A stretch of 35,772 bases of DNA from a virus. The notes under the pieces were generated by a model. That model worked only from the letters and a program-made list of their open reading frames with translations, was not told the DNA's origin and searched no databases. A program made the translations under genes and the position numbers. Location: IMG/VR virus record IMGVR_UViG_3300042923_000622, positions 1-35,772 of that record. One strand, given 5' to 3'. The first letter of the stretch is position 1, and each line of letters starts with the position of its first letter. This document shows, one piece after another, positions 1,883 through 11,831 of the stretch.

Positions 1883-1922
1883 GATATTGTGTAAAATTAT
1901 AAAAAATAAAATATCTTGTACA

Positions 1923-1955
1923 AAAAGAACACCTGTAATGGGTGTTCTTTTGTTA
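1923..1955 (+). terminator. Rho-independent terminator before the late genes
   Basis: An 11-bp perfect stem (1923-1933 with 1941-1951, core AGAACACC/GGTGTTCT) with a 7-base loop, followed by a short T-rich stretch. It would end transcripts from the early/replication genes, or be read through by late transcription. Confidence 0.7.
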
Positions 1956-1974
1956 TTTGCAGGAGTTGAATATT

Positions 1975-2142
1975 ATGAAATGTGGTTCAATAGTAAGAAT
2001 TAATGATAACAATGAATGGAATGGACTATATGGAGTAGTTAGATATATAAGAGACAATATAGCTTATATATTCTGTGTATGTCATCCAACAGATTTATAT
2101 GTAGCTACAGAACAGAATAACATTTGCATTATAGAAGAATAG
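1975..2142 (+). CDS. Small SH3/KOW-like phage protein
   Basis: A 55-residue protein starting MKCGSIVRINDNNEWNGLYG. The ATG at 1975 has the ribosome site AGGAG 9 bases upstream; an in-frame upstream ATG at 1942 lies inside the terminator stem and is unlikely to be used. The pattern (GSIVRI, GLYGVVRYI, IAYIFCV) suggests a small beta-barrel of the SH3/KOW type. It lies 15 bases before terS. Function unknown; the fold call is tentative. Confidence 0.55.
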   Translation: MKCGSIVRINDNNEWNGLYGVVRYIRDNIAYIFCVCHPTDLYVATEQNNICIIEE

Positions 2143-2157
2143 AAAGGAAGTGATCTT

Positions 2158-2565
2158 ATGGGAAATAAAAAGTCAAGAGGACATCCTTTGAAGTGGAAGA
2201 GTCCTGAGATTCTTAAGAAGAATATAGATGCATACTTTCAGTGGTGTGAAGATAAGGAGAAACATATCACTGTGAGTGGTCTTGCTTGGTGGTTAAATAC
2301 TGATAGACTAACTCTTCTGAACTATGAGAATGCAGAGGAGAATGGATGGCTAAAGAGATGTGATGAGGCAACAAAGCAGGAATACATTAACGCTATAAAA
2401 AAGGCTAAGAGAAGAATTGAACAGGAGTATGAAGATTCATTGTTTTATAAGAACTCTGTTACTGGTGCAATCTTCACTTTGAAGAACAATTATGGTTGGG
2501 TTGATAAGCAAGAAATTGTAAATACAAACAACAATATTGAAGTAAAATTGGAAGATGATGAGTAG
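2158..2565 (+). CDS. terS: Terminase small subunit
   Basis: A 135-residue protein: an N-terminal basic segment (GNKKSRGHPLKWKSPE), a helix-turn-helix-like middle (ITVSGLAWWLNTDRLTLLNYE) and a C-terminal segment KNSVTGAIFTLKNNYGWVDKQE. The last is the conserved ending of Terminase_2/DNA-packaging small subunits of Gram-positive siphophages. It recognises the packaging site and feeds DNA to the large subunit. Ribosome site GAAAGGAAG precedes the ATG. In this genome it is separated from terL by about 890 bases holding a structured stretch and an HNH gene, where normally the two genes abut. Confidence 0.88.
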   Translation: MGNKKSRGHPLKWKSPEILKKNIDAYFQWCEDKEKHITVSGLAWWLNTDRLTLLNYENAEENGWLKRCDEATKQEYINAIKKAKRRIEQEYEDSLFYKNSVTGAIFTLKNNYGWVDKQEIVNTNNNIEVKLEDDE

Positions 2566-2588
2566 TTTTACGCAATTCAAAACAATGA

Positions 2589-2769
2589 ATGGCTCAACCA
2601 TGCGGATTAGATGGTATTAAGCTTATGCGTGAAACTGCGATTTGACGCAGTTCATAATAATTAAGATGAAATCGTGAAGCCATCAAGCAAGTGCAGTGAT
2701 GGTGTCTATGGAATTGAAATAGGTACTGTATATTGAGTAGAAATATATTCAATAGAGGGGGGTATCCCC
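2589..2769 (+). ncRNA. Structured non-coding stretch between terS and the HNH gene
   Basis: No gene is visible here, but inverted repeats are dense. ATGG/CCAT (2589-2601). TTATG...CATAA enclosing AACTGCG/CGCAGTT (2623-2657; 12 pairs with a 5-base bulge). GCCATC/GATGGT (2679-2703). TATTGA/TCAATA (2731-2754). GGGG/CCCC with a 3-base loop (2759-2769). This could be a folded RNA belonging to the downstream HNH element, a group I intron remnant, or a pac/cos region. I could not find a convincing group I P7 core. The RNA type is unassigned. Confidence 0.4.
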
Positions 2770-2844
2770 ATATTTTGGAAAAATAGCGGTCAATGGTTAA
2801 AAAATATTTATTTTTTATTTTCTAGGAGGTGGAAAGTTTTGGAA

Positions 2845-2871
2845 GGTAACTATTAGTTATCTTCTTTTTTT
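2845..2871 (+). terminator. Terminator upstream of the HNH gene
   Basis: GGTAACT (2845-2851), loop ATT, AGTTATC (2855-2861), then a run of T with one C-free stretch of seven (2865-2871). A strong Shine-Dalgarno-like AGGAGGTGG (2824-2832) lies just before, followed by a five-codon frame starting TTG that ends in the stem, so a leader-peptide arrangement is possible. It would separate terS transcripts from the HNH/terL transcripts. Confidence 0.6.
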
Positions 2872-2906
2872 ATGCCTTAAAACATTTATGGAAGGAAGTG
2901 TTTTCT

Positions 2907-3470
2907 GTGGAATCAGAATTATTGGAAGGTATTAAAGGTTATGAAGGAAAATATCAAATAAGCAATTACGGAAGAGTATGGAGCGTTAAAAGACAAATAT
3001 ATTTAAAACCCAAAACAACTAGAGATGGTTATTATGCTGTTTGCTTGGTTGCCAAGAATGGGAAATTAAAACATGAAAGAATTCACAGGCTTGTGGCATT
3101 AATGTTTTGCCCGAAAGAAAAGGATAAGATAGTGGTTAATCATTTAGACGGTAATAAAAAGAATAATTATTATAAAAATTTAGAATGGTGCACTGTGAAA
3201 GAAAATACAATTCATGCTTATAAAAATGACCTAGGAAATTTTAAAGAGAATTTGAAAATGGCAACTCAAAAAGCTAGAAATAAAGTTTCTCATACTATAA
3301 TTGTTTATCAGAATGGTGTATTCATAGGTAAGTTTGTTGGAAAAGAGAAATGTGCAGAATTTTTAAATATTTCACCTAAAACAATATATAACTACATTCA
3401 TGGTAAATGCTCAAATAGAAAAGGATATAGTTTTGTGAAAGCTGGAGGTGATGTCAGATGCAACCATTAA
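2907..3470 (+). CDS. HNH homing-type endonuclease (NUMOD4-HNH-NUMOD1)
   Basis: About 187 residues. The N-terminus is a NUMOD4-like module (YEGKYQISNYGRVWSVKRQ). The centre is an HNH nuclease core with HRLVALMF, VNHLDGNKKNN and NLEWCTVKENTIHAY. The C-terminus is a NUMOD1 helix-turn-helix (KEKCAEFLNISPKTIYNYIHG). This is the architecture of I-HmuI-type homing endonucleases, which nick or cut a specific site in an allele lacking the element. The GTG at 2907 has GGAAGGAAG at a suitable distance; the GTG at 2898 overlaps that site. The last codons run through the terL ribosome site and overlap the terL start by 13 bases, so the gene was fitted exactly in front of terL. HNH proteins next to terminases can also be packaging cofactors in cos phages, but the NUMOD modules favour homing. 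Confidence 0.85.
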   Translation: MESELLEGIKGYEGKYQISNYGRVWSVKRQIYLKPKTTRDGYYAVCLVAKNGKLKHERIHRLVALMFCPKEKDKIVVNHLDGNKKNNYYKNLEWCTVKENTIHAYKNDLGNFKENLKMATQKARNKVSHTIIVYQNGVFIGKFVGKEKCAEFLNISPKTIYNYIHGKCSNRKGYSFVKAGGDVRCNH

Positions 3471-4713
3471 AAATTAATATATCTAAAAAAGTATTTAATA
3501 AGGCTTACTTGCCTTATTTAGAGGATTATAAACATAGATTCAATGTTTTTTATGGTGGTGCCTGAACGCCGGCTCTGGAAAATCACATTTTGTAATTCAA
3601 AAGATGGTTTTTAAATATCTTAAGTACCCTAACCGTAAATGTCTTGTTATTAGAAAAGTTGGTAACACCTTAAGAGATTCTATTTTTGCCTTGTTTAAAT
3701 CAGTACTTGCAGATTGGCAGCTCTTTGATCGTTGCGATATCAGAGAAACGCTTTTAACTATAGAATTCCCTAATGGCAGCCAGTTTATATTTAAGGGCCT
3801 TGATGATTCTGAAAAGATAAAATCCATTGCCAATATAGATGATATAGTAATTGAAGAAGGTACAGAAATAAGCCTTGATGAATATTCACAGCTTAATTTA
3901 AGACTTAGGTCTAAAAATCCTTATAACCAGATTCATATTATGTTTAACCCAGTTTCTAAAAGTAATTGGGTTTATTCTCAGTGGTTTGACGAAAGTGGAT
4001 ATGATAAAAAATCAACAACCGTTTTGCATACAACATTTAAGGATAACAAATTTTTGCCCTCTGATTATATTGAGGCCCTACTTGCCATGGAAAAGGATAA
4101 TTACATCTATTATAAAATATATGCCCTTGGTGAGTTCGCTACGCTTGATAAATTAGTATATACAAATTGGCATACTTTAAGTTTTGATTTTAGAAAAGTT
4201 TTAGCCAATGATAATGTAACCGCAGTTTTTGGACTTGATTTTGGTTACATAAATGATCCTAGCGCCTTTATATGTGTATTGGTGAATAAAACCTCAAAGA
4301 TGATTTATATTTTTGACGAATTCTATGAGAAAGGTCTTTTAAATGATGCTATAGCAGGGAAAATAAGAAAAAAAGGCTATAGAAAAGAAATAATAATTGC
4401 TGATTGTGCTGAACAAAAATCTATTGAAGAGATTCGAAGAGCTGGTATTTATAGAATTATTCCTGCAAGAAAAGGTAAAGACAGTATTATGAATGGAATT
4501 CAGTTTTTGCAACAATTTAAAATAATAGTTCATTCTAGCTGCGTTAATACAATTGAGGAATTTAAAAACTATACATGGCAAAAGGATAAAAGTACAGGTG
4601 AATATATAAATAAACCAATAGATAAATATAATCATTTACTAGATGCTCTTAGATATTCTATGGATGGGATAAGAAAAAGTAATAGTGCACCAGTAATTAT
4701 TAAAGGACTGTAG
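3458..4713 (+). CDS. terL: Terminase large subunit, frame interrupted in Walker A
   Basis: ATP-driven DNA packaging motor with C-terminal nuclease. The frame opens at ATG 3458 (ribosome site GGAGGTG inside the HNH gene; MQPLKINISKKVFNKAYLPY) and reads to FNVFYGGA, where UGA follows (3563-3565). The rest continues in another frame from GSGKSHFVIQK (3571) to 4713. Removing 8 bases gives a canonical Walker A, GGAGSGKS. Downstream are the Walker B-like DDIVIEEGTE, the motor motif MFNPVSKSNW, and nuclease motifs GLDFGYINDPSAF, IIADCAEQKS and NHLLDALRYS, typical of the PBSX/SPP1 (Terminase_3) family. Everything else is intact, so this is a recent lesion, a sequencing error, or a translational bypass. 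An internal start (for example ATG 3604) would lack Walker A and be inactive as a motor. Confidence 0.9.
3560..3570 (+). other. 8-base interruption with matched GCC codons in terL
   Basis: The sequence GCC-TGAAC-GCC joins the two frames of terL. The first GCC (3560-3562) is in the upstream frame and is followed at once by a UGA stop; the second (3568-3570) is in the downstream frame. Skipping from one to the other gives exactly GGAGSGKS. A simple -1 shift would instead insert Leu-Asn-Ala into the P-loop. Confidence 0.6.
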
Positions 4714-4724
4714 GAGGTGATGAC

Positions 4725-6236
4725 TTGCTAACTGATTTAAATTTTTTAAACCCCGGTGAAATATGGCCCCCGGCTTCTGAACGAGGGCGACTTGAAATGT
4801 ATGCCAGGAACAAAGAAATATTTGAAGGCAATCACACAGAAGTTTTTGCGGATCAGTTCAAAAGAATTGAGAGGGTAATAGGAAACTGGCAGCAAGTAAT
4901 AAGCTATGCTGTATTGACTAACTATCAAAAACTTATAAGCCTTAAGACTGCTGATTTGCTTCTGGGGGAATTTCCACGATTCAAAATTGATAAGAGTTCC
5001 AGTGATGAACAGAAAGCCGTTGATAACATAATTGAAAACTCAGATTTAATAAACACAGCTTATGAAAATACGATTGATATTAGTCGTTATGGAGATGGGC
5101 TTTTTTTAGTTTATAAAGATTCTGACAGTAAAACAGGAAGTATTGATGTAACTCAACCCTCAATATGGTTTCCTATAGTATCACCTGATAACCTTAAAAA
5201 AATTAAATATCATGTTTTGGCTTGGCGGTATGATGTAACTGAAAATACAAATAACGGCTTCTTCTCTAGCTTAATTTTTGGTAATAATCTAGTTAAACAG
5301 AGTTTTCTTAAGGTTCAGATTCATTCTAAAGGTAGTTACGAAGAAAGAAAATACCAGCTTGATACTGGACCTACTTCTTTTATAGGCAAACTTCTTAGTG
5401 TTGACATTGTTAATACTGGGCTTAAAGATTTTGCCGTAATAAATGTACCTAACGTCATTACATCTGATAGGATTACGGGTATTAATGATTATGATGATTT
5501 GAGTAGCCTTTTAAGTGAATTGGAAGTCCGTTTAAGTCAGGTTTGTAAGATACTTGATAAGCATGCCGCACCTTCTGTACAGGGTCCTAGTGGGGCAATT
5601 GAAAAAGACCCACAAACTGGGGAATGGAAACTTAAGATGGGGAATTACTTTCCTCGGGATAGTGTAGATGATCCACCTTTAGAGTATGTAACATGGGAAG
5701 CTAGCCTTGATGCAAATTTCAAAATTATAGACAAAATAATCAATCTTCTCTATGTAATTTCTGAAATGGGTAATACGATTTTTGGAGATATGGATAACAA
5801 AGGGTCTGTTGGTCAGCTTTCTGGAATTGCTCTAAGACGTTTAATGATTTCTCCATTGGCAAAAGTAAACCGTATAAGAATGCGAATGGATCCTGCTCTT
5901 AAAAAAGCTATAAAATTATGTTCTCAGCTTGGTGGCGAAAATATAATTGATTTAACCGGGAAGTCTTTAAGTATTGTATGGAAAGACGGTCTGCCTCAAG
6001 ATGAAATGGAACAGGCAAATATAATGTCTATTAGAACTGGTGGTAAACCTACTATAAGTCAATATAGGGCAGTTCAAGAGCTTGACGACTTAAGTGCCGA
6101 AGATACTCAGATTGAGATTGATAGAATTGATGAAGATGAATCTAAGGTCAATCCTGTGGGCAATGGAAACTTTCCTTTTTCAAGTACTGCAGTAACTGGA
6201 GATATTGAAGACCAAAATACTGGTGGTGCTGAATAA
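4725..6236 (+). CDS. Portal protein, SPP1 gp6-like
   Basis: 503 residues, the usual size for SPP1-type portals. The dodecameric portal forms the DNA entry/exit pore at one capsid vertex and docks the terminase. Recognisable segments are RYGDGLFLVYKDSD near 120, the WFPIVSPDN segment, and the C-terminal stem/crown region with LSGIALRRLMISPLAKV, characteristic of phage_prot_Gp6 portals. Translation starts at TTG 4725 with AGGAGGTG just upstream; the ATG at 4719 is in a frame that stops after three codons. It follows terL by 11 bases and abuts the minor head gene. Confidence 0.9.
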   Translation: MLTDLNFLNPGEIWPPASERGRLEMYARNKEIFEGNHTEVFADQFKRIERVIGNWQQVISYAVLTNYQKLISLKTADLLLGEFPRFKIDKSSSDEQKAVDNIIENSDLINTAYENTIDISRYGDGLFLVYKDSDSKTGSIDVTQPSIWFPIVSPDNLKKIKYHVLAWRYDVTENTNNGFFSSLIFGNNLVKQSFLKVQIHSKGSYEERKYQLDTGPTSFIGKLLSVDIVNTGLKDFAVINVPNVITSDRITGINDYDDLSSLLSELEVRLSQVCKILDKHAAPSVQGPSGAIEKDPQTGEWKLKMGNYFPRDSVDDPPLEYVTWEASLDANFKIIDKIINLLYVISEMGNTIFGDMDNKGSVGQLSGIALRRLMISPLAKVNRIRMRMDPALKKAIKLCSQLGGENIIDLTGKSLSIVWKDGLPQDEMEQANIMSIRTGGKPTISQYRAVQELDDLSAEDTQIEIDRIDEDESKVNPVGNGNFPFSSTAVTGDIEDQNTGGAE

Positions 6237-7291
6237 TGAATGATAGATTAGTTCAGAAACTCATTGAAATATATAAGGAGGCTCAACAGGGGCTTGTAAA
6301 AACTATAGCTGAAAAAGAAGCCAAAGGAAATTTAGCAACCTATCAAAAGAGTTTATTATTTCAGGTAAATCAAATATTATCTGAGCTTACGAATCAAGCT
6401 TATAATCTGACTAATGAAATAGTTGAATCTTATTACAAAGATACTATTGACGAGGTTTTACAAGACTTAAAGGATAAGGGTCAGCAAGTTGTAAGTAATG
6501 GATTTTCAAAACTTCATACTGGGGCTATAGCTGTTATTGCTAAAAATTACTTTGAAGACCTAAGAGATGCAAACAACTTTGTTGGTAGACAAATTTCTGA
6601 TGCAGTGAGAAAAGCTGGACTTGATGCAGTATCTCGGAAAATTGCAACTGGTCAAACTGTTAAGGAATGTAAAAAGAATCTTGTTAATATGCTTATTGAC
6701 CAAGGCCTTAATGGTATTAAGGACAAGAGAGGTAGAATGATAAGCTTAGATGCTTACGCTTCAACTGTAGCACGTTCTACCACCGCTGAGGCAACAAATA
6801 CAGCTACTACAAATCAGCTTACTGAGCTTGGATATGATTTAGTTAAGATGACAGAGCATTCACCTACGTGTGCCGTATGTGCGTTATACCAAGGACGTGT
6901 TTATTCCATTAGTGGGAAAGATACAAGGTTTCCACCTTTAAGTGTTGCTTTTAGTGGTGAGTTTGCAAATATTCATCCTAACTGTGTTCATAGGTTGTTC
7001 CCATATATTGAATCTTTAGCAGATGATTTTGCCAAAGATCTAGCATTTAGTAACAGACCTTTTGAGTTATCTGAAAAAGATAAAAAGGTTTTAGATACTT
7101 ATAATAAGCAGCAAAAGGAAAAAGTGAAACTTAGGAATGACCGTAACCAATATCAAAGATATAAATTATCAATGCCAGGTGATACACCTAAGAATTTTGC
7201 TAGTTTTAGAAGAATCAAAAACTCAGATAGTGAAAAATATAAAAACTTATTGAGTAGTTATAGAAGTCTAAGACAAGGGGGCGAGGGATAA
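6236..7291 (+). CDS. Minor head protein, SPP1 gp7/Mu gpF-like
   Basis: 351 residues. The N-terminal half is helical; the C-terminal half contains SPTCAVCALYQGRVYSISG and HPNCVHRLFPYIE, the Cys/His pattern of the phage minor capsid protein 2 / Mu F-like family. These proteins associate with the portal and enter the capsid with DNA or assist early ejection. The start overlaps the portal stop by one base (TAATGA), which points to translational coupling. Family assignment is firm; the precise role is inferred from SPP1. Confidence 0.85.
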   Translation: MNDRLVQKLIEIYKEAQQGLVKTIAEKEAKGNLATYQKSLLFQVNQILSELTNQAYNLTNEIVESYYKDTIDEVLQDLKDKGQQVVSNGFSKLHTGAIAVIAKNYFEDLRDANNFVGRQISDAVRKAGLDAVSRKIATGQTVKECKKNLVNMLIDQGLNGIKDKRGRMISLDAYASTVARSTTAEATNTATTNQLTELGYDLVKMTEHSPTCAVCALYQGRVYSISGKDTRFPPLSVAFSGEFANIHPNCVHRLFPYIESLADDFAKDLAFSNRPFELSEKDKKVLDTYNKQQKEKVKLRNDRNQYQRYKLSMPGDTPKNFASFRRIKNSDSEKYKNLLSSYRSLRQGGEG

Positions 7292-7702
7292 ATGAATATT
7301 CCTGAAAGTGTAAAGATTGGATTTAAAGATTATAAGATAAATAAAGTTGACGGAGATGTTATAGATGGTACTGCTGTTTGCTATGGGAACATAAAGTTTG
7401 ATGATGGTATTATAAATATTGCTAATAAGTATAGTACGGACCAAGTTAATTGTACTTTATTTCATGAAGTAATACATGGCATTGATGATAACTTTGATAT
7501 TGGTTTATCTGAAGAACAAACTCAAAAACTTGGTAAAGGTCTTTATGGGTTCATTAAAGATAATCCTTTGATATTCAAAGATAAAATGATTGATGCCAAC
7601 AGTATAATTACGGGTAAATTTGATAAAGAGCTTTTAAAGGCAATAAGTGAAGGAAAATTGTCAGAGTTTATAAAATCGCATGAAAGGAGGGTGGGTTTAT
7701 AA
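7292..7702 (+). CDS. HExxH metallopeptidase-like protein in the head operon
   Basis: 136 residues with CTLFHEVIHGIDD at about 50-62: an HEVIH zinc-peptidase signature embedded in a hydrophobic helix, similar to ImmA/SprT-type minigluzincins. The N-terminus (PESVKIGFKDYKINKV) and the segment GNIKFDDGIINIANK match the beta-strand lead-in typical of such phage proteins. It sits between the minor head and the Tad2 fusion gene with one-base spacing or overlap at each end. Whether it matures a structural protein or is an accessory enzyme is unknown. Confidence 0.7.
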   Translation: MNIPESVKIGFKDYKINKVDGDVIDGTAVCYGNIKFDDGIINIANKYSTDQVNCTLFHEVIHGIDDNFDIGLSEEQTQKLGKGLYGFIKDNPLIFKDKMIDANSIITGKFDKELLKAISEGKLSEFIKSHERRVGL

Positions 7703-8292
7703 TGGCTAAGTATAGAAAGAGGCCTGTTGTAGTTGAAGCATATCGTCCGTATCATGGCAAAATGCCACAATGGTTTGAAAATGCATTAGAGACAGGCAGA
7801 ATAAGAGAATTAGTATCTGGAGGATTCAATATTGATACCTTGGAAGGAACTATGGAAGCAAGTGTGGGTGATTATATTATAAAAGGTGTTAGTGGAGAAA
7901 TCTATCCATGTAAACCAGATATATTCGAAAAAACTTATGAGCATGTATTTGTGCCCGAGGATAGTAATGGAATATGTGAAGATACTGAAAAATCAAAGAT
8001 TACAGGAACTACAGTAGATGTAAGTGTTAAAAATAGTTTTGGCTACGCACTAGAATTATTAAAGCATGGTAAAGCAGTTACCCGTAAAGGATGGAATGGT
8101 AAAGGTATGTTTGTATACTATGTCCCAGAGAATTCTTATAAAACTATAACAGATGTAGCTAAAAAAGAATTTGGAGAATATGCTAATTATAGTCCATACT
8201 TAGCTATAAAAAATATTAACGGAACTATTAGTACATGGGTTCCAAGTATAAATGATTGTTTAGCAGAAGATTGGGAAGAAGTAGAGCTTTAG
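7702..8292 (+). CDS. tad2: PGDYG-like domain fused to Tad2 (DUF2829) anti-Thoeris domain
   Basis: 196 residues in two parts. Residues 1-83 (KYRKRPVVVEAYR...GDYIIKG...CKPDIFEKTYE) match the small PGDYG-type domain common in phages. After a linker, residues 111-196 are a DUF2829 domain: FGYALELLKHGKAVTRKGW, a GMFVYYVP strand, YSPYLAIKN, and the closing WVPSINDCLAEDWE. DUF2829 proteins are the Tad2 family, which sequester the cyclic ADP-ribose signal of Thoeris defence and, in some members, CBASS cyclic nucleotides. The gene overlaps the metallopeptidase stop by one base and is followed by a spacer before the scaffold. The domain call is strong by motif; activity is inferred. Its place inside the head operon, expected to be expressed late, is odd for a counter-defence protein. 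Confidence 0.8.
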   Translation: MAKYRKRPVVVEAYRPYHGKMPQWFENALETGRIRELVSGGFNIDTLEGTMEASVGDYIIKGVSGEIYPCKPDIFEKTYEHVFVPEDSNGICEDTEKSKITGTTVDVSVKNSFGYALELLKHGKAVTRKGWNGKGMFVYYVPENSYKTITDVAKKEFGEYANYSPYLAIKNINGTISTWVPSINDCLAEDWEEVEL

Positions 8293-8345
8293 AAATAAGG
8301 CTTTTTATTTTTACACTTTTTTAATAATGAAAGGAGATTAGTAAA

Positions 8346-8948
8346 ATGGCAGATTTAAAGAAAATATTTGGTGAAGAATTATACAACCAAGTTACTGAAA
8401 AATTAGGAGAAAACAAAATTGATGTTGTTTCTGATGGAAGCTATATTGCCAAGAATAAATTTGATGAAATCAATGCTCAAAATGAAACCTATAAAACTCA
8501 AGTAGGTACTTTAAATGGTCAAATTAAAGACCTTGAAAAGTCAGCTGGTGGCGATAAGGATTTACTTACAAAGATTGAAACTATGAAAGGTGATAATGAA
8601 GCTTTAAATGGCAAAATCAAAGATATAACAATAAAAAATGCAATAAAAATGGCTTTAATAGAAAGTAAAGCTAAATACCCAGATTTGCTTGCTAAAGAAA
8701 TTGACATCTCAAAATGTAATGTTGATGAAGCTGGGAATACAACAGGAATAAAAGAGCAATTGCCAAGTTTACAAGAAAACTATAAAGATTTTTTTGAAGC
8801 TGAAATCCCTGGAAATGGTGGAGGTAATCCTCCAGGAGCAACGAACAGTAATGTTCCTAACTTGGATGAAGAATATCAAAATGCTTTGAAAAGTGGGAAC
8901 TTGCCTTTGGCAATTTCTATAAAAAATAAATTATTTGATAAAAAATAG
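8346..8948 (+). CDS. Capsid scaffold protein (GP20/DUF4355-like)
   Basis: 200 residues. An acidic/helical N-terminus is followed by a long coiled coil (about 45-100, FDEINAQNETYKTQVGTLNG onward) and a helical end (PNLDEEYQNALKSGNLPLAISIKNKLF). The Gly/Pro-rich linker NGGGNPPGATN separates the two. This layout and the position directly before the major capsid gene are typical of phage minor structural GP20-type scaffolds, which assemble the procapsid and then leave it. ATG with AAAGGAG upstream. Confidence 0.82.
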   Translation: MADLKKIFGEELYNQVTEKLGENKIDVVSDGSYIAKNKFDEINAQNETYKTQVGTLNGQIKDLEKSAGGDKDLLTKIETMKGDNEALNGKIKDITIKNAIKMALIESKAKYPDLLAKEIDISKCNVDEAGNTTGIKEQLPSLQENYKDFFEAEIPGNGGGNPPGATNSNVPNLDEEYQNALKSGNLPLAISIKNKLFDKK

Positions 8949-8961
8949 GAGATGATTTTAT

Positions 8962-9906
8962 ATGGCAAACGCTAGTGGTCAAGGTACAGTTTGGAATCTG
9001 CCAAACTATGCCGGAGAATTATTTACAGCAGATATGATTAATACACCATTCTTAAGTATGATTGGTGGACTTACAGGAGGAAAACAAACTGAGAACTTTG
9101 AATTTCCAGTAGATTCAACCTACACTATGCCAGCAGCAGCACAACCCGGAATAACTGAAACAGCTTCTTTAACTGCTCCAACTGCGATTGGATATACTAG
9201 GGATCAGAAAACAAATGTAACTCAAATATTTCAGGAAAAAGTTTCAATTTCTTATGTTAAATTAAGTAATGCTGGAAGAATGAGCGGTCTTAATACAGCA
9301 GGACAACAGAATAATGCTCCTTCTGAAAAAGACTTTCAGATTGCCAGATCCCTTGAAAAAATCGGTAGGGATATTGAATATACTTGCCTTAATGGTGTTT
9401 ATCAAGTCTCTACAAGCGCAACAGTGGCAAATAAGACAAGAGGTATGATTTCATTATGTTCTACTGGCAGTACAGTGGCAGCGGCAGGAGCAAGCTTAAG
9501 CAAATCTTTAATGGACACTTTATTTAGAACTATGTATAGTAACGGTGCAATGTTTAAGAATATGGTTTTATGGGTTAATGGTTTCCAAAAACAAGTCATA
9601 TCAGGTCTTTATGGTTTCGCACCACAGGACAGAAATATTGGTGGTGTTAACATCAAACAAATAGAAACTGATTTTGGAAACATAGGAATAGCTTTATGTA
9701 GATTTATGCCAACAGATACTATACTTGCGTCTGAAATGTCTGCAATAGCTCCAGTGTTTCAGCCTGTACCTGAAAAAGGTAACTTCTTCTACGAAACACT
9801 TGCCAAGGCTGGAGCTTCTGAAGATGGACAGATATTTGGACAATTTGGTCTTGCTCATGGAGATATAGCATTGCACGGAACTATTACAGGATTAGCTACG
9901 TCATAG
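8962..9906 (+). CDS. Major capsid protein
   Basis: 314 residues, starting with a short Ser/Gly/Gln-rich segment (ANASGQGTVWNLPNYAGELF) followed by the DMINTPFLSMIGGLTGG pattern seen in SU10/SPP1-like major capsid proteins of clostridial phages. The E-loop and A-domain regions are rich in beta structure (NFEFPVDSTYTMPAA; QIETDFGNIGIALCRFMPTD). It forms the HK97-fold shell. It sits 13 bases after the scaffold with its own AGGAGATG ribosome site. The family is inferred from position, length and fold pattern. Confidence 0.85.
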   Translation: MANASGQGTVWNLPNYAGELFTADMINTPFLSMIGGLTGGKQTENFEFPVDSTYTMPAAAQPGITETASLTAPTAIGYTRDQKTNVTQIFQEKVSISYVKLSNAGRMSGLNTAGQQNNAPSEKDFQIARSLEKIGRDIEYTCLNGVYQVSTSATVANKTRGMISLCSTGSTVAAAGASLSKSLMDTLFRTMYSNGAMFKNMVLWVNGFQKQVISGLYGFAPQDRNIGGVNIKQIETDFGNIGIALCRFMPTDTILASEMSAIAPVFQPVPEKGNFFYETLAKAGASEDGQIFGQFGLAHGDIALHGTITGLATS

Positions 9907-9918
9907 GGAGGAATTAAG

Positions 9919-10092
9919 ATGGCTACACCAAAACCAAAAATAAAAGATCATCCAGCAATACCACCTAGTGTTAAACAAACACTGGTAATGCCAAGTCAAA
10001 CCGATAGTGTCGCAGCTGATGTTGCGACGATTAAAGATGATTTTAATGCTCTCTTAGCAAAGTTAAGAGCAGCAGGATATATTGATAGTTAG
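9919..10092 (+). CDS. Small head fibre-like protein
   Basis: 57 residues from ATG 9919 (ribosome site GGGAGGAAT) to TAG 10092: a Pro/Lys-rich start (ATPKPKIKDHPAIPPS), then DVATIKDDFNALLAKLRAAG, a helix resembling the C-terminal trimerising helix of phage head fibre proteins. It lies 12 bases after the capsid gene. A capsid decoration or fibre role is inferred from position and this helix. Confidence 0.65.
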   Translation: MATPKPKIKDHPAIPPSVKQTLVMPSQTDSVAADVATIKDDFNALLAKLRAAGYIDS

Positions 10093-10103
10093 GAGTGAGA
10101 AAG

Positions 10104-10304
10104 ATGGCTAAATTTAAAGGTTATGGACTTGTATGGAACAAAGATAAAGATGAAGTTTTATGTGAATTTAAAAATGGAGAAGCTGAAACTTCCGATAAGA
10201 AAGTAATATCTAAACTCAAAGAATTAAAGTATGAGGAAATAGATACTACTGGAGATACTGAAGTTCAGGCGACTGAAAATCCTGCACCAGCTGAAACAAA
10301 ATAG
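10104..10304 (+). CDS. Small head-completion-region protein
   Basis: 66 residues starting at ATG 10104 (MAKFKGYGLVWNKDKDEVLC). An in-frame GTG at 10095 overlaps the ribosome site AGGAG and is less likely. The first 45 residues look like a small beta-rich domain (VLCEFKNGEAETSDKKVISKLKELKYEEI, resembling decoration proteins of other siphophages), and the tail is acidic and Ala/Pro-rich (ATENPAPAETK). Role unknown; it lies between capsid and connector genes. Confidence 0.6.
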   Translation: MAKFKGYGLVWNKDKDEVLCEFKNGEAETSDKKVISKLKELKYEEIDTTGDTEVQATENPAPAETK

Positions 10305-10316
10305 CGAGGTGATTTT

Positions 10317-10751
10317 ATGGCTTTGATAGTAGGAACTAATAGTTATATTGATGTTGATGAGGCACAAGCCTATTTTGATAATAGGCTTTATTCTGATGCA
10401 TGGACTAATGCTAGTCAAGAAGATAAGTCAAAAGCTCTCATAACGGCAAGTAGTAGAATAGACAATGTTCCAGTAATGGGAATTAAAAAAATATATTCTC
10501 AGCCTTTAGAGTTTCCTAGGTACTTTGAAACTGATGTAAGTCAGAATGTTAAAAATGCAGTTTGTGAGGAGGCTCTTGCTTTACTGAAAGGAGTTTCTAA
10601 ACGTATAGAATTGCAAAGACAAGGTGTAAAATCATTCAGTTTTAATGGGGGAATGAGTGAGAACTATGGCAATGGTAAAAATTCAATTCTATATTCTCAT
10701 GAAGCTATGGAATTTATGAAGCCTTATTTTGGGAGTGTGAGAATGGAATGA
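10317..10751 (+). CDS. Head-tail connector (adaptor) protein
   Basis: 144 residues. The start MALIVGTNSYIDVDEAQAYF, followed by a helical body with DAWTNASQEDKSKALITASSRIDN, matches the family of gp6-like/DnaT-like-annotated adaptor proteins found directly after capsid genes. These bind the portal and extend the neck. It overlaps the next gene by four bases (ATGA). ribosome site GCGAGGTG. The family is inferred from the N-terminal pattern and synteny. Confidence 0.75.
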   Translation: MALIVGTNSYIDVDEAQAYFDNRLYSDAWTNASQEDKSKALITASSRIDNVPVMGIKKIYSQPLEFPRYFETDVSQNVKNAVCEEALALLKGVSKRIELQRQGVKSFSFNGGMSENYGNGKNSILYSHEAMEFMKPYFGSVRME

Positions 10752-11026
10752 TAGAGGATTATTTTAATACTATGATTGCTTGGAAAAAGTCTCTTGGTAA
10801 AAATACTTATGATGAGGAGGAATATGAAGTTGTCAATACTCCTTGTCTCAAGTTTGATAAAATTAGGCTTACAACTAACAAACAAGGGGAACAGGTAACT
10901 TCTACATCGACTATTAATATGAAAGATAAACCTGGTTATGATGATATGCTTGACGGCAGAAAGATACTTACTATAAATAGTATGAATGGCCTAGATATCA
11001 TTGAAGCATATGAGGTGTTGATATGA
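10748..11026 (+). CDS. Head closure (stopper) protein
   Basis: 92 residues, beta-rich, with the pattern YDEEEYEVVNTPCLKFDKIR...VTSTSTINMKDKPGYDDMLDGRKIL...EAYEVLI. Stoppers of the SPP1 gp16/HK97 connector type are this size, lie between the adaptor and the gp10-like neck protein, and plug the DNA channel. It overlaps both neighbours by four bases, so it is translationally coupled. Assigned mainly by synteny. Confidence 0.65.
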   Translation: MIEDYFNTMIAWKKSLGKNTYDEEEYEVVNTPCLKFDKIRLTTNKQGEQVTSTSTINMKDKPGYDDMLDGRKILTINSMNGLDIIEAYEVLI

Positions 11027-11460
11027 GTGATAAAGAATGGACACAAATTGATGGATTAGCAGACCTTGAAAAGAATTTTGACAAAGCTCTTAAAGAAATG
11101 GGAGAAATAAATAATAAGGCTTTTACTGATGTTGTTCTAGGTTTACATGGTGAATCAGTAAAACAGGCTCCTGTAGAATTTGGAGATTTGAGAGGTTCAA
11201 GTTCAGGTACTGTGAATGGAACTACCATATCAAAGGGTGACAAAGATGGTAATATTGACGTGATTGGAAATGCACAAGACGAAGAAATCATGCAGGGAAC
11301 TGTTGGCTTTTCGGTTGAATATGCAGCAACACAGCATGAACATTTAGAATTTAAGCATCTCAAGGGTGGTAAAGCAAAATACCTCGAAGATCCTTTTAAA
11401 GCTAATTCGCAAAAATATATTGACCATATTGCACAAGCAAATAAGGACCACTTAGGGTAG
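11023..11460 (+). CDS. HK97 gp10-like neck/tail-completion protein
   Basis: 145 residues. The family pattern is clear: a helix with KNFDKALKEMGEINNKAF, then LHGESVKQAPVEFGDLRGSS, and near the end FSVEYAATQHEHLEFKHLKGGKAKYLEDPF. This is the HK97 gp10/minor capsid family acting at the head-tail joint. It overlaps the stopper gene by four bases. Confidence 0.8.
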   Translation: MSDKEWTQIDGLADLEKNFDKALKEMGEINNKAFTDVVLGLHGESVKQAPVEFGDLRGSSSGTVNGTTISKGDKDGNIDVIGNAQDEEIMQGTVGFSVEYAATQHEHLEFKHLKGGKAKYLEDPFKANSQKYIDHIAQANKDHLG

Positions 11461-11468
11461 GTGATTTT

Positions 11469-11831
11469 ATGCTAGAAGAAATAGGAGTAGCTCTGCAAAG
11501 TAAAAATATAGCAACTCCGGCAGTAGATTTATTTTATAATTCCATGCCAAGTTCACCGGATATATGTACAACGCTTTATCAGACAGGTGGATTTGAGCCA
11601 GGGCTGAATTTTGATAAGTCATCAGAGGAATCACCAACTTTCCAAGTAATGTGTAGAGGTACTTCACAGGTTGAAACAAATTCAAGAATTCAAAGTATAT
11701 ATAAATATCTACATGGAAACAGTGATATATTCCCATTTATTCAAGCTATGCAAAGCCCTGAACCTTTAGGGCGTGATAGTAATAATAGATGGGAATTTTC
11801 ATGTAATTTTAAAATAATTAAAGAATTATAG
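11469..11831 (+). CDS. Tail terminator (tail-completion) protein
   Basis: 120 residues (LEEIGVALQSKNIATPAVDL; PSSPDICTTLYQTGGFEPG; FQVMCRGTSQVETNSRIQSI). This matches the minor-capsid/tail-terminator family just upstream of the tail tube gene in siphophages. It caps the tube and fixes its junction with the neck. Ribosome site GGTAGGTGA precedes the ATG. Confidence 0.75.
   Translation: MLEEIGVALQSKNIATPAVDLFYNSMPSSPDICTTLYQTGGFEPGLNFDKSSEESPTFQVMCRGTSQVETNSRIQSIYKYLHGNSDIFPFIQAMQSPEPLGRDSNNRWEFSCNFKIIKEL

Follow-up and report, generated by a model that had tools for sequence, protein, structure and literature searches.

The gene for the large terminase subunit (terL) in the window, that is, in the whole 35,772-nucleotide stretch of DNA analysed here, is broken within its Walker A motif by eight nucleotides that are probably tolerated through a short forward hop of the ribosome ("stop-hop"), which would restore the canonical P-loop GGAGSGKS. 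Walker A of TerL is broken by different inserts of 2, 5, 5, 6, 8 and 8 nt in at least six lineages, as counted by sequence identity rather than on a tree, and these sites appear to form a new, recurrent class of putative natural stop-hops. It can be suggested, as a tentative idea that falls short of an even chance, that packaging-motor genes repeatedly gain such micro-bypass elements of 2-10 nt, which would hide the DNA of conserved ATPase motifs from homing endonucleases and which the ribosome would cross by a simple code: a P-site codon, a weak stop or hungry codon and a usually synonymous landing codon.

The interrupted terL gene and the proposed hop

The window represents a temperate phage with annotated integrase, repressor, portal, capsid, tail and lysis genes, and its terminase region is organised as follows.

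2158..2565, + strand: small terminase subunit gene terS (GP3_package; Pfam)
2566..2865, + strand: non-coding, strongly folded stretch in the gap between terS and the endonuclease gene (fold z = -3.0; 0/200 shuffles as stable)
2898..3470, + strand: free-standing NUMOD4-HNH_3-NUMOD (I-HmuI-like) homing endonuclease gene (Pfam), with a 13-nt overlap with the terL start
3458-4713, + strand: terL, both parts, interrupted in Walker A
3458..3562, + strand: terL 5' part, 35 codons, MQPLKIN...FYGGA (translation; intact homologues such as L117)
3560-3562, + strand: proposed take-off codon GCC, the last of the 5' part
3563..3565, + strand: UGA stop right behind the take-off codon (sequence)
3563..3570, + strand: 8-nt insert TGAACGCC (sequence; the intact relatives L117, L118, L007 and L120-L122 are without it)
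3571..4713, + strand: terL 3' part, resuming at GSGKSHF, with Terminase_3 ATPase and RNase H-like domains (Pfam; translation)

Positions 3458-3562 (ATG...TTT TAT GGT GGT GCC) give MQPLKINISKKVFNKAYLPYLEDYKHRFNVFYGGA, an ordinary conserved TerL N-terminus. The gap consists of the 5 nt TGAAC (TGA at 3563-3565, AC at 3566-3567) followed by the landing GCC at 3568-3570, and the downstream frame reads GGC TCT GGA AAA TCA from 3571 and is open to the stop at 4711-4713, with matches to Terminase_3 (E 9e-54) and Terminase_3C (E 1e-39). The sequence, the translation and these matches confirm what the preliminary description had given for the site: its coordinates, the joint GCC-UGAAC-GCC with an immediate UGA and matched GCC codons, and an otherwise intact terL that resumes at GSGKSHF. 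Its claim that landing on the second GCC yields the canonical loop likewise holds: when TGAACGCC is deleted in silico, the loop reads GGAGSGKS, as in the relatives of the window terL.

It is proposed that peptidyl-tRNA(Ala) would occupy the first GCC in the P site with UGA in the A site, and that slow termination at UGA would let the tRNA release its codon. The mRNA would then advance by 8 nt, the tRNA(Ala) would re-pair on the second GCC, and decoding would restart at GGC to produce the canonical motif.

Very few genes are known to use bypassing in nature. T4 gene 60, which the preliminary description had invoked as the precedent, resembles the window in its identical take-off and landing codons (GCC 3560 and GCC 3568 in the window), in the stop directly behind take-off and, more loosely, in the presence of a neighbouring HNH-type endonuclease gene (mobA in T4). 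The analogy fails for the length of the gap, which is about 50 nt in T4 but 5 nt (an 8-nt hop) in the window, and for the stimulatory 5' and take-off stem-loops, which gave no signal in the window; the genes also differ (topoisomerase versus terminase), a nascent-peptide signal also belongs to the T4 type, and the hop in the window is a putative one, read from sequence. The synthetic "stop-hops" of E. coli (Weiss et al. 1987), as summarised in a review, are +5/+6 forward hops between matched codons around a stop (PMC5009743); the window shares the matched codons, but the E. coli cases are constructs and not natural. According to the same review no natural in-frame stop-hopping is known (PMC5009743). 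In the mitochondrial byp system of Magnusiomyces capitatus short inserts are bypassed in translation at 81 positions in one genome (PMC5009743), and like the TerL inserts some of these have imperfectly matched take-off and landing codons; they differ in being read by a different (mitochondrial) ribosome and in that the TerL inserts measure only 2-10 nt. Of the features of known systems, a slow A-site codon and a usually cognate landing are repeated among the TerL elements; a long gap and stem-loops are not.

Recurrence in other TerL lineages and in cultured phages

In all inserts that measure at least 2 nt, a stop (UAG or UGA, never UAA) stands right behind the last codon read in frame, and in most of them a synonym of that codon precedes the point where the frame resumes. 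A homology search found the 6-nt case GCG-UAG-GCU in a phage present in several metagenomes, with a TerL 76% identical and broken at the same residue. A TerL that is 98% identical (protein) to that of this phage is intact in another contig, so the 6-nt insert and the 8-nt insert of the window arose separately; a single ancestral origin of the two is ruled out by the close intact relative L117. A pattern scan that required a stop detected the 5-nt case GCC-UA-GCU in 8 contigs (mutual identity 97-100% around terL), a 5-nt GCU-UA-GCU in another lineage and, in yet another, the 8-nt case GCC-UGAAU-GUU (L062), and a homology scan that took no account of the P-loop yielded a 2-nt insert, GCG-UA, in L195, where UAG stands directly behind GCG. 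Each interrupted lineage has nearby intact relatives (at 82% for GCU-UA-GCU, for example), which points to independent gains. The comparison with close terL relatives that the preliminary description had recommended thus returned both intact genes and genes broken at the same loop by different inserts.

When the P-loop was scanned without requiring a stop, all non-natural TerL inserts at the Ala|Gly site proved to have an immediate one; the scan also returned the natural extra-Ala loop GGAAGSGK and, at the Gly|Lys step, L111. In L111 and L213, which belong to other TerL families, GGU-UGA-GGU/GGC precedes the lysine of Walker A. A single P-loop of L069 (reverse strand, about 2380) holds both GCA-UA-GCG and GGA-UGA-GGU, and removal of the two gives GGARGGGKSW, as in a relative. 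Pattern hits on other P-loop ATPases or by chance were discarded, as was L212, where a TGA stands in for a codon and is probably recoded; the terL of Enterococcus phage EH93P1 is split near its C-terminus and not at the P-loop.

An insert of random sequence in a position of this kind would produce an immediate stop with a probability of about 0.05, a synonymous landing with about 0.03 and both with about 0.002. The four cases found without a stop requirement (the 6-nt case, GCU-UA-GCU, L195 and L011) have the stop in 4/4 and the synonymous landing in 3/4. Frame breaks in 132 TerL-bearing loci (duplicates included) affect 7 lineages within the roughly 15 nt of Walker A, compared with 3 elsewhere in about 1.2 kb, namely L204 (1 nt), L011 and L033. 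L011 contains a complete 9-nt stop-hop arrangement, CCU-UAGUUG-CCU, at a second TerL motif, where it restores GLDDPERIKSI.

Cognate codons flanking a stop, together with a restored canonical protein, are found in the window and in most of the other elements, and we infer that one model (P-site codon, slow A-site signal, forward mRNA movement and re-pairing) may fit nearly all cases. Its weak point is the two inserts that have no synonymous landing codon, GCC...GUU and GCG...GUA, where landing on GUN would require tRNA(Ala) to pair G.U at the second codon position. With independent inserts elsewhere keeping the same grammar, the very short hop put forward in the preliminary description is the reading that the data favour.

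Purifying selection on TerL continues across the breaks: the interrupted alleles L059 and L066 differ by 24 synonymous and 4 nonsynonymous changes, and the L006 branch after its split from the intact L117 has 10 and 3; the branch of the intact L117 has 21 and 7. The stop-type elements use UAG or UGA in 11/11 cases and UAA in 0/11, and about half of the genes in the contigs carrying them are terminated by UAA. As UAA is recognised by both release factors, its absence would fit selection for slow termination.

Three plaque-isolated Streptomyces phages, phiHau3, GreenWeasel and BroPlease, have GGC-UUACYCC-GGU in the TerL Walker A, with UUA in the place of the stop. UUA is rare in Streptomyces. 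In the annotations their terminases appear as split or miscellaneous features.

L219, 2329-3995: terminase of phiHau3
L220, 2302-3968: terminase of GreenWeasel
L221, 2302-3958: terminase of BroPlease

The terL of phiHau3 is split twice, by GGC-UUACUCC-GGU in KGWG|KDP and by UCU-UUAACGG-UCC before TFVVLNE; the colinear relatives Yosif and Amela have neither element. The second element, ahead of Walker B, is shared by GreenWeasel and missing in BroPlease, and is thus a presence/absence polymorphism (2/3 phages). All three are cultured phages whose laboratory hosts are named, which makes a broken Walker A compatible with packaging. The window resembles phiHau3 in its short insert between synonymous codons of the TerL Walker A with a slow codon behind take-off, here UGA; phiHau3 differs in using UUA and not a stop, in the size of its insert (10 nt), in its position at Gly|Lys and not Ala|Gly, in the extra element before Walker B and in the lack of an HNH gene immediately beside terL. 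Its terminase was proposed earlier as a bypass candidate, according to a citation in a review (PMC5009743). The TerL elements would be a recurrent set in an essential gene, with cultured phages that are open to direct tests, and phage annotation pipelines would be splitting functional terminases.

Alternatives to a ribosomal hop

It is improbable that the window is a defective prophage with a dead terL, recently inactivated by the insertion, although Walker A does contain an out-of-frame stop, a close isolate of this phage was not found and interrupted TerL was not detected with the stop pattern in the 84,980 bacterial and archaeal genomes scanned. Independent events would not be expected to share one codon grammar in dead genes, the phage gene set is otherwise intact with no second terL among the annotated genes, and cultured phages carry the same kind of interruption. 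The preliminary description had named a recent inactivating duplication and a sequencing error as the main competitors of a hop; the former is disfavoured by the purifying selection among interrupted alleles. The latter, or an assembly artefact, is scarcely credible: the insert was first seen in one metagenomic contig, but the contig IMGVR_UViG_3300042922_000459 matches window positions 1885-11488 at 99.97% (9.6 kb) with the same 8 nt present, other lineages are represented by several contigs each, and independently sequenced cultured isolates have the same kind of insert.

Translation through the site without a hop, by -1 frameshifting or, for the in-frame cases, by readthrough, would add one to three residues to the P-loop (GGALNAGSGKS in the window) and is judged quite improbable. 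A -1 shift after GCC does enter the right frame, and the natural GGAAGSGK loop indicates that one extra residue can be tolerated; however, a slippery heptamer is absent at the site, the additional residues would disrupt Walker A spacing, and synonymous codons flanking the stop are predicted by neither process. The 6- and 9-nt inserts would moreover need readthrough and not a -1 shift, so that two mechanisms would be required. Removal of the 8 nt from DNA or RNA before translation, by a micro-intron, editing or programmed excision, would restore the frame too, and the T4 gap may derive from an intron (PMC5009743). Such removal is nevertheless very unlikely, since the phase of the stop and the synonymous codons would not matter to it and no Rfam intron match was obtained. 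It also counts against excision that we know of no system that removes 2-10 nt of varying sequence.

Neighbouring endonucleases, RNA structure and the origin of the inserts

If the ribosome does hop, the inserts may have been fixed because they destroyed the P-loop DNA as the target of a homing endonuclease. The insert of T4 gene 60 has been proposed as protection from the mobA nuclease (PMC5009743; PMC2988022), and nuclease immunity of this kind is a possible explanation of the TerL inserts, less certain than the bypass itself; micro-bypass elements would then amount to nuclease immunity at the level of decoding. The endonuclease gene of the window, with NUMOD4 and HNH_3 domains above cut-off (45 and 42.5 bits), is a candidate driver of the 8-nt insert, and a 46%-identical gene occupies the same place in one other interrupted lineage. 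NUMOD4-HNH genes lie immediately upstream of terL in 2/6 interrupted lineages versus 0 among the roughly 98 intact loci whose upstream sequence was long enough (Fisher p about 0.005 for 2/6 versus 0/70, where 70 intact lineages is an estimate and not a computed count). Two observations count against nuclease immunity: most interrupted lineages have no such neighbour, and HNH genes are common in phages generally. In L033 a GIY-YIG endonuclease gene with intron-like flanks (2100-2880) interrupts terL at the GL(D/R)DD motif (GLRDD), and its insertion point adjoins the site of the L011 element.

It is also conceivable, if rather doubtful, that the bypassing is real and the element serves as a regulatory throttle on TerL synthesis instead of being a scar of nuclease immunity. 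Slow A-site signals are present everywhere (UAG, UGA, UUA), the review suggests a UUA-linked role in phiHau3 (PMC5009743), and in 4/6 interrupted lineages terL has no adjoining HNH gene. Against a throttle stand the repeated appearance of elements at conserved ATPase motifs, a favoured kind of endonuclease target, the apparent success of close relatives without the element and the HNH neighbour, although the latter is found in two interrupted lineages only.

No stimulatory RNA structure shared across the elements was found, and in the window neither a 5' nor a take-off stem-loop gave a signal beyond synonymous-codon or random-insert controls. L011 has a hairpin, and a strong 5' stem occurs only in the GCC...GUU case. 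This long stem of L062 (about 8390-8470) outperforms 99% of synonymous recodings, and the loop closed by GGAGCC/GGCUCC consists exactly of the insert; the arrangement is similar to the take-off structures of gene 60. The folded stretch at 2566-2865 of the window matches no Rfam family at gathering score, and the idea that a group I intron had left a remnant ahead of the endonuclease gene was rejected for want of Rfam support; a 29-nt piece of the stretch has a weak match (E 0.09) to unannotated sequence in lactococcal phages.

Genes for small serine recombinases are frequent in or close to the terS-terL gap, with interrupted and intact P-loops alike (L006 2239-2814, L117, L118, L122, L007, L008 and L195), and the one between terS and terL in L006 was dismissed as a cause since such a gene also adjoins an intact terL. 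Two phages from metagenome 3300028591 have 1-nt C inserts in conserved TerL motifs, L174 around 2420-2430 and L204 around 2910. The inserts, GGA C GGA and UGG C GGA, each make CGG directly behind the break, a codon almost absent from the genes of these phages (0/1582 and 1/1460 codons). CGG would again be a slow A-site codon, here with no matched landing, so that a matched-codon hop would not account for these cases.
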